A stretch of DNA of 64,000 nt from Halostella pelagica (GTDB lineage: Archaea; Halobacteriota; Halobacteria; Halobacteriales; Natronoarchaeaceae), in assembly GCA_005954745.1 (NCBI GenBank), contig CP040678.1:496001-560000 (forward strand). Direction: 5' to 3'. Below the pieces are notes generated by a model that worked only from the letters and a program-made list of their open reading frames with translations, was not told the origin of the DNA and did no database searches. Shown piece after piece: positions 1-5,430 of this stretch; within the stretch, counting starts at the first letter, position 1; each line of letters opens with the position of its first letter. Both the position numbers and the translations under genes were made by a program.

Positions 1-879
1 CTCTCGTACGACGACCCGATCGTCGACCACTGGCCCGGGTTCGCCGACGACGGGACGGCGAAAGCCGCGGTCACCGTCCGGCAGGTGCTCAGCCACCACT
101 CCGGGCTCACCGAGAGCGCGTTCGACGACCGCCCCGGCCTGTGGCACGACTGGGACGCCGCCGTCGCGGCGATGGAGGACGCCGAACTGACCCTCGAACC
201 GGGGACGGCCGCCTACCAGACGCTCACGTACGGCTGGATCGTCGGCGAACTCGTCCGGCGCGTAACCGGGACGCCGGTCGAGGAGTACGTCCAGGCCAAC
301 GTGTTCGACCCCCTCGGCATGGACGACACGACGCTCGGTGCCGACGACGCCGACGACGTCGCGACGCTCGTCGGGTTCGAGGAGTTCGACCGCTGTCGCG
401 ACCCGGGGGAGGGGCTGGAGACGCTTGCGCCGCGGGAGGCCGCGGCCGCGTTCAACGACCCGTCGGTTCTCGAGTCCGTCGTTCCGGCGTCGACGGGCGT
501 CGGAACGGCCCGCGACATGGCGCGGTTCTACGGCTGTCTGGCCGATGGCGGCGCGACAGACGGATGCCGGCTCCTCGACCGCGAGACGGTCGACGCGATG
601 ACATCGCTCCACGGCGACACCCCCGACGACGGGACGCTCTCCCGACCGATGCGGTACGCGCTCGGCGTCTGGAACGGCGGCGCCGTCAACGACGGGTTCG
701 GCACGCTGAGCGGTCCGGAGACGTTCGGCCATCTCGGCCTCGGGAGCGTCGCCGGATGGGGCGATAGCGCCGCCGACCTCGGGTTCGCCTACGTCACGAA
801 CGGGATCCGCGAGGGGTCGTTCGAGCACTGGGCGCGGGCGAACACCGTCGCGGACGCGGTGCGACAGACGTACGGGTAG
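1..879 (+). CDS. Beta-lactamase-family serine hydrolase, C-terminal part
   Basis: The frame is open from base 1, so the gene starts upstream of the window. The visible 292 residues look like the C-terminal two thirds of a class C beta-lactamase/penicillin-binding-protein-like esterase: QVLSHHSGL, a tyrosine-containing stretch TLTYGWIVGELV (the family's Y-x-N-like position) and GHLGLGS near the end (the H/K-T/L-G position). The catalytic S-x-x-K must lie upstream and cannot be checked. Family members hydrolyse esters, amides or D-peptides; the substrate here cannot be told. No signal peptide can be assessed. Confidence 0.8.
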   Translation, partial: LSYDDPIVDHWPGFADDGTAKAAVTVRQVLSHHSGLTESAFDDRPGLWHDWDAAVAAMEDAELTLEPGTAAYQTLTYGWIVGELVRRVTGTPVEEYVQANVFDPLGMDDTTLGADDADDVATLVGFEEFDRCRDPGEGLETLAPREAAAAFNDPSVLESVVPASTGVGTARDMARFYGCLADGGATDGCRLLDRETVDAMTSLHGDTPDDGTLSRPMRYALGVWNGGAVNDGFGTLSGPETFGHLGLGSVAGWGDSAADLGFAYVTNGIREGSFEHWARANTVADAVRQTYG

Positions 880-889
880 GCGTCTCGCG

Positions 890-3106
890 CTACGGGCCAT
901 CGCCGTCCGCCGCGCCGCCGTACGCCGTGACCACCGCGTCCTCGCGGTCCGCGAGATACGCCTCGATATCGCCCCGCCGCCACCCCAGCGGCGAGAGGAC
1001 GCTCTCGGCCGCCCGGAGCGCCCGGTCGCGGTAGTAGTCGGCGTCGTAGCCCTCCGGTTCCTCCGCCGCCAGCGCGACCCGTTCTCTGGTGTCTCTCTCG
1101 TTGTCCACTACGACGTAGTCGACGGACTGGCCGGGTTCGACGTCAAGTCCGGCGTCGTCCGCGCGCTCTACCGCCGCCGTCGAGTGCGTGTAATGAGCGT
1201 ACTCCCCCGATTCCTTCGAGACGCGGTTCGAGACGGCAAGGTCCGCGGGGTCGACCCGTTCCGCGTCGAGTCGCTGGAGGTACTGCGCGAGGACGCCACA
1301 AACCGGTTCCGGCTCGCGATACCGGTCCAGTGCCGCGATCAGGTCGCGCTGAACGTCGGCGACCCACTCCGGCGTCGACCGCTGGCGACACTCGACCCCG
1401 CGGTACTTGAACGCATCCTCGCCGCCGTTTCCCCCGTCATCCCTCGCCTCCGCACCGCCTTCCGTGCCGCCCTCGTTCGCCCGCTTCCCGAAGTACTTCG
1501 TGAGCGCTCCAGCGTTCGAGTCCCGCCGCGGGACGAACGCCACCCAGTCGTACGCCGACTCGTACTCCAGGCGGACGCCGACGTCGTCGGTTATCTCGGC
1601 GGCCAGCGCGTCCAGCGGCCGCCGCTTTGCGCCCTCGCGCGGCGTCACCCAGACGCTGTCGACGATACCGTGAACTACCTCCCAGCCGCCGGCTTCGAGC
1701 GCCGCCTTCGCGTCGAGCAGTATCTCCCGGGCGAACGCGTTGATCGCCTCGTGGCATTCGATCCGGCCGAACTTCGCGTTGCTGAAGCCCTGATAGCCGA
1801 AGCAGGCGACGAGGATCCACTTCAGTGCGGCCGACCGACCCGCTAACGTCTCCCGGCGCTCCGGGTCATCCGTCGACCGGCGCTCCCGCTTGATCCCGTC
1901 GCGGGCGTCGACAAGCGACGACAGCACCTCTGGCAGATACCCCTGCTCGTCGCAGACGGCGTAGCCGAGCCCCGGTACGTCCTCGCGGTCGGGGTGGCAG
2001 TCACAGCGGACCGTCTCCGGGCTGACGTTGCGCGTGACGATGATGTTGGGGTACAGCGAGGCGAAGTCGAGTTCGTGGACGTCCTCGTGGACCCCGACGC
2101 GCGGCGAGAAGGTGTAGCCGCCGCGGTCCGCGTCCTGTAACTGCCCCATCGTCTTGAAGAACTCCGCGCGCCAGGACCGCCAGGGGACGAGGACGTTCCG
2201 GTCGAGCGCCTCGCGGACCTGGATCGCCGTGAGGACGTTCCCGATGGACGCCCACGCGAGTTCCTGGAGCGGCTTGCCGGACCGCGAGACCAGGTCGAGA
2301 CAGCCCACCAGGTTCGTCTCGCGATAGAAGAACGTGTTCTCGCGGTCGATAACCGCTCGCCCGGGGATGCCGTACCGCGCCGGCGAGTGGCCGACCCGCC
2401 CGTAGCTCTCGTACGTCGACGCCCCCGCGCGCTTCCGGTAGCCCGGACGCCGCCCTAACTGGAAATCGACCCCTCGATCGTGGGCCGTCTCGAACAGGAT
2501 CGGTATCAGCCGCGCGGTGCTCAGAACGAGCACGTCCGGGTCGGCGCTCTCGACTCGTTCGCCCACCCGTTCGACGACGGTTTCGGGGTTGCCCGCGACC
2601 GTCTCCGCGCCGCGCGGCCCATCCCCGTTCGCCCCTTCCCCGCTCCGCACCGTACACTCCGTTATCTCCGGGTCGTCGCCGGCGAGTTCCGTCGCCGGGA
2701 CGTCGATGGCGAGTGTCCGGAGCGACCCGTTCGGCGTCGGGTCCGCGTCGGTTTCGAGGCAGTACCGAAACGCCGGCGTGAAGTCGACGTTGAACAGGCG
2801 GAACGTCCCGGATCGCTCCCAGCTTCGCAGTTGGCGCGCGACCGACCGCACGGCGTCGACGCCGGTCACGTCGACCCGGAGCACGTCCGTCGGGTCCTCC
2901 CGGAACCCCGGCCGCCACTCCTCGCGGGCGGTCGCGGCGACGTTCGGATGGGCGTCGACGTGTTCGCGGTTCTCAGCGACCGTCGCCCAGTCGTTCGCTT
3001 CGAGGTAGACCGTCGGCGTGTAGTCCGGGTCGTGCTCGCACTCGACGCCGTTGCCCGTCCGCGACCACGCGTAGACGGCGTCGTCACGGAAATCGACCGT
3101 GAACAT
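890..3106 (-). CDS. B-family DNA polymerase homolog (PolB2-like) with altered active-site motifs
   Basis: This 738-residue protein has the palm motifs of family B polymerases: motif A LDFASLYPNII with Asp347, and motif B from Lys429 (KWILVACFG). Motif C, normally YGDTDS, reads HGIVDS: Ile481 replaces the first Asp and only Asp483 remains. The exonuclease domain is degraded too: exo I D-x-E appears as AIDVP (Asp135, no Glu), and no exo II N-x3-F-D is seen. It is shorter than replicative haloarchaeal PolB. It fits the archaeal PolB2 group, part of which has been proposed to be inactivated. It ends a three-gene minus-strand cassette, 2 bp after the preceding small gene. A repair or accessory role is inference. 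Confidence 0.85.
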   Translation of the reverse strand: MFTVDFRDDAVYAWSRTGNGVECEHDPDYTPTVYLEANDWATVAENREHVDAHPNVAATAREEWRPGFREDPTDVLRVDVTGVDAVRSVARQLRSWERSGTFRLFNVDFTPAFRYCLETDADPTPNGSLRTLAIDVPATELAGDDPEITECTVRSGEGANGDGPRGAETVAGNPETVVERVGERVESADPDVLVLSTARLIPILFETAHDRGVDFQLGRRPGYRKRAGASTYESYGRVGHSPARYGIPGRAVIDRENTFFYRETNLVGCLDLVSRSGKPLQELAWASIGNVLTAIQVREALDRNVLVPWRSWRAEFFKTMGQLQDADRGGYTFSPRVGVHEDVHELDFASLYPNIIVTRNVSPETVRCDCHPDREDVPGLGYAVCDEQGYLPEVLSSLVDARDGIKRERRSTDDPERRETLAGRSAALKWILVACFGYQGFSNAKFGRIECHEAINAFAREILLDAKAALEAGGWEVVHGIVDSVWVTPREGAKRRPLDALAAEITDDVGVRLEYESAYDWVAFVPRRDSNAGALTKYFGKRANEGGTEGGAEARDDGGNGGEDAFKYRGVECRQRSTPEWVADVQRDLIAALDRYREPEPVCGVLAQYLQRLDAERVDPADLAVSNRVSKESGEYAHYTHSTAAVERADDAGLDVEPGQSVDYVVVDNERDTRERVALAAEEPEGYDADYYRDRALRAAESVLSPLGWRRGDIEAYLADREDAVVTAYGGAADGDGP

Positions 3107-3108
3107 TT

Positions 3109-3483
3109 CTACCGCGTCGCGCCGGCGTTCTCGCCGTTCCCATTTGCGTTTTCCGTCTTCCCGTTTGCGGTCTCACCGGTCCCAATCGTGCCCTCACTGG
3201 TCCCGTTTGCGCCCTCGGCGCTCCCGTCGCCGTCCGCGAGGTCGTCCAGGCGCTCGGCCAGTTCGTCCAGTCTGCGCTCGTGTTCCAGCGCGACGGAAAA
3301 CAGCGCCGGGACGATGGGGTCGGGGTGGTTCAACAGACCGCTTGCGTCGGCGTGGCGGTCGGCGTGTGCCCACAACCGGTCGAAGCGGCGCTGTTCGTCG
3401 TGGCGGAGGCCGCGGCGGTACGTCTCCCACCGCTCGGCGGTGCGCCGGAGCAGGTCCCGATAGGTCGGATTGGTTCGGCCCAT
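3109..3483 (-). CDS. Small conserved-looking protein of the PolB2-like cassette
   Basis: A 124-residue protein wedged between the RadA-like gene (no gap) and the polymerase gene (2-bp gap), so very probably co-translated with both. The N-terminal 90 residues are helical and Arg-rich (NPTYRDLLRRTAERWETYRR) with a long predicted coiled coil (ALEHERRLDELAERLDDLAD). The last 35 residues are a low-complexity Gly/Asn/Glu tail, possibly a flexible linker. I do not recognise the family. Position and coiled coil suggest an adaptor between the two neighbours, by loose analogy with bacterial mutasome accessory proteins; this is inference. Confidence 0.75.
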   Translation of the reverse strand: MGRTNPTYRDLLRRTAERWETYRRGLRHDEQRRFDRLWAHADRHADASGLLNHPDPIVPALFSVALEHERRLDELAERLDDLADGDGSAEGANGTSEGTIGTGETANGKTENANGNGENAGATR

Positions 3484-4233
3484 CTACCGCACCCCCTCCG
3501 CGCCGGCGGACGAGACGCTCGGTTCGCGGTCCTCGTCCGGGGTCGCCGTCGCGCCGTGTATCGGGTCTCGGGCTTCGAGGATCCGCGTCCAGTACGCGAG
3601 CGTCGTCTGGACGGTGCCGTCCGGTTCGCCCGGGTAGACAAGCGTCTCGAACCCCTCGGTCCGGAACCGCGGGCCGAACTCGGTCCGCTCGCAGGCCACG
3701 GTCGTGTCGGCGGCGGCCGCGGCGGGCGCGCCGAACTCGTCGTCCCGCCGTCGGGTGACGAGAACCGGCAGGTCGCGCTCGCGGGCGAGGCGGCCGACGG
3801 TCGCGAGACTCCGCAGGAACAGTTCCCTGCCGTCCTCACGGGGCAGTTCGTCGCCGCGGTACTGACCGTCTATCGCCGGCAGGACGACCAGCGACGTGTT
3901 CGGCGTTACCCGCTCCGGCAGTCGCTCGACCAGCGTCGCGTGCTGGGTCGGCGTGAACCCCCTTGCGACCCGGACGCGGTCGAGGACGCGCCGACTCGGC
4001 GCGAGGCGACCGAGCAGTTGCGACTGCGCGTGGCCGTGGCTGTCGACCCACAGCGCCTCGCCGCCCTGCAGGAGCAGGTGGTCGAGGACCAGCGCCTGCA
4101 GGGGACCGGTCGCCCCCTCCTCGGTCGAGAGAAGCGTGATCCCCGGGTCGAGCGTCGGCAGTTCCGGCACGTCGAGGCGACCGCCCCGCGCCGCCGTGAG
4201 TGTGCTACCGTCTGGTGGTGGCGTTCGGACCAT
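3484..4233 (-). CDS. RadA/RecA-like protein with degenerate ATPase motifs
   Basis: About 249 residues from the ATG at 4233 (alternatives 4260 and 4383; the longer ones run into the repeat-bearing promoter). The order of elements matches a RadA core: GITLLSTEEGATGPLQALVL sits where RadA has a Walker A loop, but there is no G-K-T/S. TPNTSLVVLPAIDGQYRGDELP parallels RadA's D-S-V-x-x-x-F-R-x-E-Y stretch with the Walker B Asp missing, and ERDLPVLVTRR parallels the VVVTNQ strand. It is therefore a RecA-fold protein probably unable to hydrolyse ATP. It is the first gene of the cassette with the small protein and the PolB2-like polymerase. Bacterial ImuA, a degenerate RecA, is the closest conceptual parallel. 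Confidence 0.7.
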   Translation of the reverse strand: MVRTPPPDGSTLTAARGGRLDVPELPTLDPGITLLSTEEGATGPLQALVLDHLLLQGGEALWVDSHGHAQSQLLGRLAPSRRVLDRVRVARGFTPTQHATLVERLPERVTPNTSLVVLPAIDGQYRGDELPREDGRELFLRSLATVGRLARERDLPVLVTRRRDDEFGAPAAAAADTTVACERTEFGPRFRTEGFETLVYPGEPDGTVQTTLAYWTRILEARDPIHGATATPDEDREPSVSSAGAEGVR

Positions 4234-4275
4234 ACCGATACGTTCCGCGGCTCGCCGCATAAGCCGAGGCGTGGC

Positions 4276-4373
4276 GTTTCCAGAAGTTCCAGAAGTCGTC
4301 GGAGAGTTCCCGTAACCACCGTACGTGGACGGGATCGAACGTCGAAATCGGCCGTTTCCAGAAGTTCCAGAAG
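4276..4373. repeat. Two 20-bp direct repeats upstream of the RadA-like/PolB2-like cassette
   Basis: GTTTCCAGAAGTTCCAGAAG occurs at 4276-4295 and again, identical, at 4354-4373 (78 bp start to start). Each copy is itself a tandem of the 9-mer TTCCAGAAG, and each 9-mer contains a TTC-N2-GAA dyad. The copies lie between the Orc1/Cdc6 stop and the first gene of the cassette, the expected promoter position on the minus strand. The repeat structure suggests operator sites for a regulator binding cooperatively; a DNA-damage-responsive regulator is a guess. Confidence 0.75.
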
Positions 4374-4425
4374 CCGCCGTCACGGTCGATTCGGTCTCGC
4401 CGCGAACAGTGCGATTCGCCCCGCG

Positions 4426-5430
4426 TCAGTTCAGGCTCCGATACACGCGGGCGCGGCTTGTTCCCTCGATCTCGATCAGGTCGTAGCGTGCCATCTTCTG
4501 CAGGTAGTTCCGCACCGTCCGGTCGCTCTTCGGGTCCGCGACTCGTTCGCGGTAGCGTTCGTACACCGCGTTCGGTTCGATCTCCCCGGCATCCTCGACG
4601 ATGTCGTACAGTATCTTCTGGTGCCGGGTGAGGTTCTCCAGGTTCCGCTGGTGGACTTCCTCCCTGGCGTCGGGGATCGCCGCCTCGACGGTCGCGGCGG
4701 TGATCCGCTCGTCGCCGTCGCGGTCGGCTTTCCGGGCGGCGCTCCGGAGGACGCTGATCCCGACGCGGGCGTCGCCCGCCGCCGCGTCGGCGATCCGTTC
4801 GAGTTCCGCCGTGCCGACGGCGTCTGCCGCCAGTCCGCGACGGGCGCGAGCGTCGAGGATGGCGACTAACTGGTCGAGCCCGTACTTCTCGAAGCGGATC
4901 CGCTCGCTCCCGCGGAGACGACTCGTCAGCCTGTCATCGATCTGGCCGAACAGTTCGGCCTCGCGGTTGGCGATGAGCACGGGCGCGAACTGCGGCAGTT
5001 CGTGGAGGTCGTACAGCAGGCTCGGGTCCTCTAGCTGGTCGACCTCGTCGAGGACGAGCATTCGCGGCGGCCCGTCGTACGCCTCCAGCCGAGCGAGGAG
5101 TTCGTCCCCCGGCGTCGACTGACGGTGGACGTCCATCGTCTCGTTCATCCCGTCGAGGACGGCGTAGGCGCAGCGGAAGAACGTGTAGTGCCGCCAGCAG
5201 TTGACGTACTGGAACTCGACGTCTAACGTTTCCTCTCGCAGGCGGTCCCCGACGAACTGCGTCACGCAGGTCTTGCCCGTCCCCGTCGGCCCCGTCACCA
5301 GCACCGTGTCGGCCGGGTCGCCGTCGGTCAGCGGCCGGAGTACTTCCGAGAGGTAGTTCACCTCGTGGTCGCGGTGCTCGACCTCCCGCGGGACGAAGTC
5401 CGTCCGGAGAACCCGAGCGTCGCGGATCAT
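4426..5430 (-). CDS. Orc1/Cdc6-family AAA+ ATPase
   Basis: A 334-residue initiator-like ATPase with Walker A GPTGTGKT, Walker B LVLDEVD, sensor 1 (PVLIANRE), sensor 2 region GDARVGISVLRSA, and a C-terminal winged helix (HQKILYDIVEDAGEIEPNAVYERYRE). Orc1/Cdc6 proteins bind origin recognition boxes and load MCM. It is shorter than the main haloarchaeal Orc1 and is probably one of the many paralogs. I see no convincing origin recognition box or long AT-rich stretch next to it, so an adjacent origin is unsupported. It lies upstream of, and on the same strand as, the RadA-like/polymerase cassette. Confidence 0.9.
   Translation of the reverse strand: MIRDARVLRTDFVPREVEHRDHEVNYLSEVLRPLTDGDPADTVLVTGPTGTGKTCVTQFVGDRLREETLDVEFQYVNCWRHYTFFRCAYAVLDGMNETMDVHRQSTPGDELLARLEAYDGPPRMLVLDEVDQLEDPSLLYDLHELPQFAPVLIANREAELFGQIDDRLTSRLRGSERIRFEKYGLDQLVAILDARARRGLAADAVGTAELERIADAAAGDARVGISVLRSAARKADRDGDERITAATVEAAIPDAREEVHQRNLENLTRHQKILYDIVEDAGEIEPNAVYERYRERVADPKSDRTVRNYLQKMARYDLIEIEGTSRARVYRSLN

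Follow-up and report, generated by a model that had tools for sequence, protein, structure and literature searches.

We analyzed a three-gene cassette on the minus strand of Halostella pelagica contig CP040678.1 (assembly GCA_005954745.1), within the 64,000-nucleotide stretch from position 496,001 to 560,000 that is here called the window. The cassette occupies window positions 890 to 4233 and encodes, in order of transcription, an inactive RadA-like protein (iRadA), a small helical protein (PPB2) and a B-family DNA polymerase (PolB2), with gaps of 0 bp between iRadA and PPB2 and 2 bp between PPB2 and polB2. Open reading frame coordinates agree with the tight packing described in the original prediction, made from the sequence without database searches, and with its choice of the ATG at 4233 as the start of iRadA; this is the likely start, and the longest open frame begins further up, at 4383. 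Our analysis places the cassette, with near certainty, among the known PolB2 mutasome operons of haloarchaea, and points to a promoter box, common to this operon and to a neighboring Orc-type gene, through which it may be controlled. The features of the locus are the following.

890 to 3106, minus strand: polB2, a PolB2-group B-family DNA polymerase of 738 amino acids, assigned by NCBIfam PRK05761.1-4 and an alignment of 12 sequences.
3109 to 3483, minus strand: ppb2 (arCOG07300 type), a small helical PolB2 partner of 124 amino acids with the N-terminus MGRTNPTYRD, assigned by conservation and an AlphaFold model.
3484 to 4233, minus strand: iRadA, an inactive RadA/Rad51 core of 249 amino acids without the N-terminal domain, assigned by profile and structure comparison.
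4258 to 4263, minus strand: TATA-like CTTATG, 24 nt before the iRadA ATG (30 nt from start to start), at a spacing conserved in orthologous promoters.
4268 to 4294, minus strand: proximal mutasome box, TTCTGGAACTTCTGGAAACGCCACGCC, containing an exact 17-mer, unique in the genome as a composite with the TATA and conserved in relatives.
4351 to 4372, minus strand: distal box copy, TTCTGGAACTTCTGGAAACGGC, 78 bp upstream of the proximal box, with distal half-sites in most relatives.
4426 to 5430, minus strand: arORC2/Orc1-Cdc6-type AAA+ gene (orc) of 334 amino acids, proposed regulator and known neighbor, assigned by Cdc6_lid, TIGR02928 and linked orthologues in sister loci.

On its own, iRadA matches NCBIfam radB weakly (4e-5) and Pfam Rad51 without significance (E 0.041). 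When 31 haloarchaeal relatives were combined and compared with solved structures, their profile matched RadA, Rad51 and RadB, with E values down to 3.8e-10. The AlphaFold model, at a predicted local distance difference test score (pLDDT) of 83, resembles Rad51, RadA and Dmc1 chains with a Foldseek E of about 1e-11 and VIA-align Z scores of 17-18 (root mean square deviation 2.6-3.1 over about 180 residues), and the RecA-like character of the first protein, on which the original prediction depended, is borne out by all three comparisons. In archaeal RadA and human Rad51 the counterpart of model residue 22 is at about 94-118, which shows that iRadA lacks the N-terminal domain. iRadA has no GKT/S P-loop, with GPLQALVLDHLL in the corresponding place, and in the alignment of its 31-member family an invariant Pro119 stands at the position of the RadA Walker B Asp (VVLPAID versus VIVDSLT, alignment read by eye). 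Profile, fold and these two sites support the earlier description of a RadA-like protein without a P-loop or Walker B acid; what remains in iRadA is a Rad51/RadA core from which the nucleotide site and the N-terminal domain have been lost. The PCNA-binding motif QxxLxxFF occurs in only part of the PolB2 mutasome family, and no canonical copy was seen by eye in iRadA or PolB2, the nearest being QTTLAYW at iRadA residues 209-215, with a spacing one residue short.

The middle protein is small and helical. Its AlphaFold model (pLDDT 81) has helices at residues 8-25, 28-49 and 57-85 and a long C-terminal helix, and in an alignment of 24 haloarchaeal relatives M1, G2, R3 and R9 are invariant and T4 is conserved in at least 90%.

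PolB2 scores 1032 bits against NCBIfam PRK05761.1-4, for which the cut-off is 692, and has an intact motif A (DFxSLYP). Its motif C reads HGIVDS, versus YGDTDS, the first Asp being gone and the second kept, and a Pfam scan gave no exonuclease-domain match, so the earlier view of a B-family polymerase altered in motif C and in its exonuclease is upheld. D254-R255 forms a D(K/R) motif; D254 is present in at least 90% of the 12 aligned sequences, followed mostly by R and otherwise by E or V. A possible reading of the changed motif C and the missing exonuclease match is that haloarchaeal PolB2 is catalytically dead and that the cassette acts at stalled forks in a structural or regulatory capacity, and it would fit with the tolerance of Haloferax volcanii for PolB2 deletion (PMC7776575). 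We regard this as unlikely, as the active PolB2 of Sulfolobus islandicus shares the change (IID; PMC11791011), and the 12 aligned haloarchaeal sequences show no variation in motif A, the motif B Lys or the second Asp of motif C, all of which a dead enzyme would be free to lose. The word damaged, which the original prediction used for the polymerase, misleads, since the same replacement of the first Asp by Ile occurs in active proteins.

An operon of inactivated RadA, arCOG07300 and PolB2, present in haloarchaea and linked to an ORC gene, was described by Makarova in 2014 (PMC4104785), and was named the PolB2 mutasome by Timinskas in 2025, with a modeled complex of composition PolB2-iRadA-(PPB2)3 (PMC11791011). 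The marks given there are an iRadA without N-terminal domain and ATPase site, the MGRT arm of PPB2 and, in PolB2, the D(K/R) motif and a changed first Asp of motif C. Operons of this kind are further marked by a PolB2 exonuclease site that is usually lost, a position near residue 253 for the D(K/R) motif, and a three-helix PPB2 with Arg at 3 and 9. The window cassette agrees in its three families, gene order, MGRT arm, lost RadA nucleotide site, D(K/R) motif, motif C change and orc neighbor, with no difference at the protein level, and because its features match those of PMC11791011 we assign it to the PolB2 mutasome with very little doubt. The operon, the mutasome concept and the ORC neighbor are thus already known, and the proposal of an archaeal mutasome analogue was right in kind although already published. 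What sets the present case apart is the GGAA-box promoter shared with orc, which goes unmentioned in the portions available of PMC4104785 and PMC11791011.

Evidence of linkage is apparent in 80 haloarchaeal PolB2 loci drawn from genome contigs. iRadA and PPB2 lie directly upstream of polB2 in most of them, in the order iRadA-PPB2-PolB2, and in many the orthologue of the window's Orc-type gene follows further upstream, beyond iRadA-PPB2. Linkage of iRadA and PPB2 to polB2 is far beyond chance. At other loci, many of them on plasmids, other DNA parts polB2 from iRadA-PPB2; such plasmid-type operons with inserted genes include L041, L044, L045, L050, L067, L079 and L080, among others, and in L079 and L080 one inserted gene resembles a TnpB-type transposase. 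Where the operon is split in this way, polB2 has its own box copy, and the TATA belonging to this copy precedes the polB2 start by 33-54 nt. Four Haladaptatus loci (L012, L017, L020 and L027) have PPB2-like genes beside polB2 that begin MSQT, MSHT or MMQT, not MGRT, and resemble the MGRT-less PPB2 copies described in PMC11791011; BLAST for iRadA found none at these four. A survey of 243 Halobacteriales genomes found PolB2 in 150 and the orc orthologue in 165, and 128 have both (odds ratio 8.8, shared ancestry not corrected for). Conserved linkage of the trio, to which the original prediction had tied its case, extends across haloarchaea.

In S. islandicus, PolB2 (also called Dpo2) is induced by damage and alone accounts for targeted mutagenesis (PMC7390963), so that a role of the kind that the original prediction did not know of has been described. 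By analogy, a translesion function is quite probable for the haloarchaeal cassette as well. Following the published models, the holoenzyme would contain PolB2 and iRadA once each and PPB2 as a trimer; in it, PolB2 would contact iRadA as successive RadA subunits contact each other and the MGRT arm of PPB2 would extend toward the polymerase active site. Sulfolobus genetics suggests that, once damage has occurred, the complex would extend primer ends that are mispaired or contain a lesion, with mutations as the price, and the Sulfolobus data suggest that the operon would be damage-induced.

The closest published parallel is Escherichia coli Pol V (UmuC-UmuD'2-RecA), which likewise has a RecA-family subunit bound in a filament-like manner and an N-terminal arm from a small oligomeric subunit (PMC11791011); it differs in its Y-family polymerase, active RecA and unrelated small subunit. 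The original prediction had drawn the comparison to bacterial ImuA-ImuB-DnaE2. This holds for function and layout, both being damage-tolerance cassettes of three genes with a degenerate RecA-family protein, but not for homology: the haloarchaeal operon has no Y-family or C-family polymerase, and PPB2 is a small helical protein rather than an inactive polymerase. ImuA-ImuB-DnaE2 is an analogue, not a homologue, because the polymerase families differ, and common descent is thereby ruled out.

Dissection of the region between orc and iRadA revealed two exact copies of a 17-mer, TTCTGGAACTTCTGGAA, at 4278-4294 and 4356-4372, with 0.10 chance matches expected in the window when up to 3 mismatches are allowed. 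The corresponding site in relatives holds a tandem GGAA element leading into CGaCaCGCCnnnGCTTATc. The consensus of the whole element is TTCnGGAAn-TTCCGGAARCGaCaCGCCnnnGCTTATc, usually 24 nt from the ATG, and it is found before iRadA, before polB2 where this has been split off, and before orc, even in genomes without polB2. Nearly all orthologous promoters have CTTATc starting 30 nt ahead of the iRadA ATG, and this spacing suggests that the iRadA transcript is leaderless, from a weak and unusual TATA (CTTATc). Most relatives also have a distal pair of half-sites, located 75-79 and 85-92 bp upstream of the proximal one, and the DNA between differs.

The composite of box and TATA occurs once in the 3.94-Mb H. 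pelagica genome. A looser 22-nt pattern at up to 3 mismatches occurs at 20 places, of which the two operon sites alone are free of mismatches; the remaining 18 fall inside long open frames and are read as chance. The single composite match and the mismatch-free matches at the operon sites only rule out a chance GC-rich motif. Over 1.09 Mb of loci a position weight matrix (PWM), for which iRadA sites were partly training data, gave 117 matches versus 9 in reversed sequence, and scanning the 243 genomes with a 26-nt pattern at up to 3 mismatches gave 117 matches versus 5 for the reversed pattern. Of the latter 117, at least 80 share the strand of polB2 and sit no more than 12 kb upstream of it: 35 precede iRadA, at 1.0-1.6 kb, 21 are at 60 bp or less from polB2, and 24 others. 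Among 20 further sites inspected, those with 0-2 mismatches are mostly before iRadA or polB2, and one with 3 mismatches is before orc.

Two described damage-related elements were compared with the box. No match was seen to the Halobacterium UV-B motif TTTCACTTTCA (PMC2556686) or to the Sulfolobus DNA damage response (DDR) element ANTTTC (PMC9738581); the shared element here is the tandem GGAA box.

A few box sites lie apart from the operon. In L129 (G191:C4, position 465 onward), a 3-mismatch box is followed at exactly 30 nt by an exonuclease-like gene that begins MGDLSPVAFDIETSGLDPS; the site is about 1 kb from an orc gene, in a genome without detected polB2, and this gene is a possible further regulon member, the sole candidate found. 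In L133 (G101:C1) and L135 (G120:C69), boxes just downstream of orc are at the place expected for iRadA, and no iRadA was seen there; these boxes may be relics of lost operons.

To explore the share of the Orc-type gene in the box, we trained a PWM on iRadA promoters only. The product of this gene matches Pfam Cdc6_lid (8.9e-11) and, slightly below cut-off, TIGR02928 (172.8 bits). By Cdc6_lid the genome has about ten Orc/Cdc6 paralogues, the window's being among the most divergent (45.5 bits versus 75-108 for most others). The PWM detected the box in front of 23 of the 31 linked orc genes versus 1 of 382 other open reading frames in the same loci (Fisher p 6e-30 with kinship ignored, an overstatement because promoters of related genes share ancestry), and several orc promoters scoring below threshold show the box by eye. 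In genomes without detected polB2 the box is still present before most sampled orc genes, and retention at orc without the operon is the pattern that autoregulation would give. A putative non-initiator orc gene and the PolB2 operon thus share a promoter motif across loci, the promoter of orc itself included. In the window's own lineage orc has lost the box, whereas the operon promoter carries two copies.

The linked ORC gene has also been taken to raise the alternative that the task of the complex is to initiate replication or to control origins, and not to carry out translesion synthesis (PMC4104785). In its favor are the ORC-type gene adjoining the cassette and the homology of iRadA to RadA, (active) RadA being required in origin-less H. 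volcanii, as cited in the same paper. We consider it very improbable, given the targeted-mutagenesis role of S. islandicus PolB2 (PMC7390963), the presence of lexA in bacterial operons of the PolB2 kind (PMC4104785, PMC11791011), and a box common to both promoters, which accounts for the ORC linkage as regulation. The box itself was compared with the replication origin as well. The H. pelagica origin, at C1 3150.1-3150.9 kb beside an Orc gene, has origin recognition boxes (ORBs) such as TTCCACTTGAAACGAAGGGGTGG. These have in common with the promoter box only a (T)GAAACG/GGAAACG core, and the ORB G-string is missing from the promoter box, leaving its identity as an ORB unsupported. In initiators the G-string is read by the AAA+ domain (PMC3936714), and a box with the ORB core and without the G-string would fit binding by a regulator without initiator action. 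The six-base core common to box and ORB is weak evidence for Orc binding.

A more serious alternative leaves the mutasome identity intact and gives the box to another transcription factor, or makes it an extended B recognition element (BRE) for one of the many haloarchaeal TFBs, with orc a mere member of the regulon. The box adjoins the TATA at a fixed distance, as either an activator site or an extended BRE would, Orc binding to TTCTGGAACTTCTGGAAACG is so far an inferred property, the likeness to the ORBs of the genome's own origin is confined to the core, and in some genomes with box and polB2 no orc orthologue passed the threshold. For a BRE, an additional pair of half-sites 75-92 bp upstream would be unexpected, and the persistence of the box at orc in polB2-less genomes is the pattern of an autoregulator. 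We give this alternative a substantial but minority share of the probability, and lean modestly toward control of the mutasome operon by the box and this Orc.

The preferred interpretation as a whole, which we consider likely, is of a translesion mutasome under box control by a non-initiator, self-controlling Orc, as with Sulfolobus Orc1-2. In S. islandicus, Orc1-2 uses its winged-helix domain to bind DDR promoters as well as the promoter of its own gene (PMC9738581). The haloarchaeal case appears alike in having a non-initiator Orc1-type AAA+/winged-helix gene that shares a promoter motif with putative damage-response genes, and differs in its motif, a tandem GGAA box here versus ANTTTC there, with binding and induction inferred here. 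The Orc paralogue would be a damage-response regulator and no origin initiator, binding the box and controlling its own gene and the mutasome. Evenly balanced, in our estimate, is the more specific proposal of an SOS-like haloarchaeal circuit in which the Orc paralogue binds the tandem GGAA box (TTCnGGAAn-TTCCGGAARCGaC) at its own and the mutasome promoters, with sites ~78 bp apart, and would in this way govern damage-induced mutagenesis.

Several points weigh against the preferred interpretation. The box is missing before the window's own orc, before that of L005, a close relative, and before orc in 3 sampled polB2-less genomes (G206, G225 and G071), and in 22 of the 150 genomes with polB2 no orc orthologue passed the threshold. 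Data on expression or binding in haloarchaea, including PolB2 transcriptomes, were sought in a literature of incomplete coverage and none were found. The Halobacterium UV transcriptome papers give the other, UV-B motif, and a search of those papers for polB/polB2 and orc gave nothing. H. volcanii PolB2 could be deleted with no reported consequence, according to an unpublished remark (PMC7776575).

The box bears on how euryarchaea turn on error-prone repair. We know of no general LexA-type SOS system in archaea, and the box suggests a route by which salt-loving archaea without a bacterial-type SOS might activate error-prone repair. The promoter box common to mutasome and orc was not found in the literature searched, which was incompletely covered, and is to that extent new. 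If confirmed, it would provide a defined cis element and, in the adjacent orc, a candidate regulator that can be named, making the question of control testable in genetically tractable haloarchaea. If the reading is true, control of the Sulfolobus Orc1-2 type would extend to euryarchaea, with a different DNA element.

At the other end of the cassette, a beta-lactamase/serine-hydrolase-like open reading frame on the plus strand (window positions 85-879) converges on the end of polB2, with no visible link to it. Elsewhere in the genome, a second, truncated PolB2 copy at C3:194423-195949 is 62% identical over residues 214-730 and has one in-frame stop, and neither iRadA nor PPB2 is recognizable in the surrounding stretch examined. 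A further short PolB2 fragment lies at C3:167352-167510. Both are apparently decayed copies on a smaller replicon.

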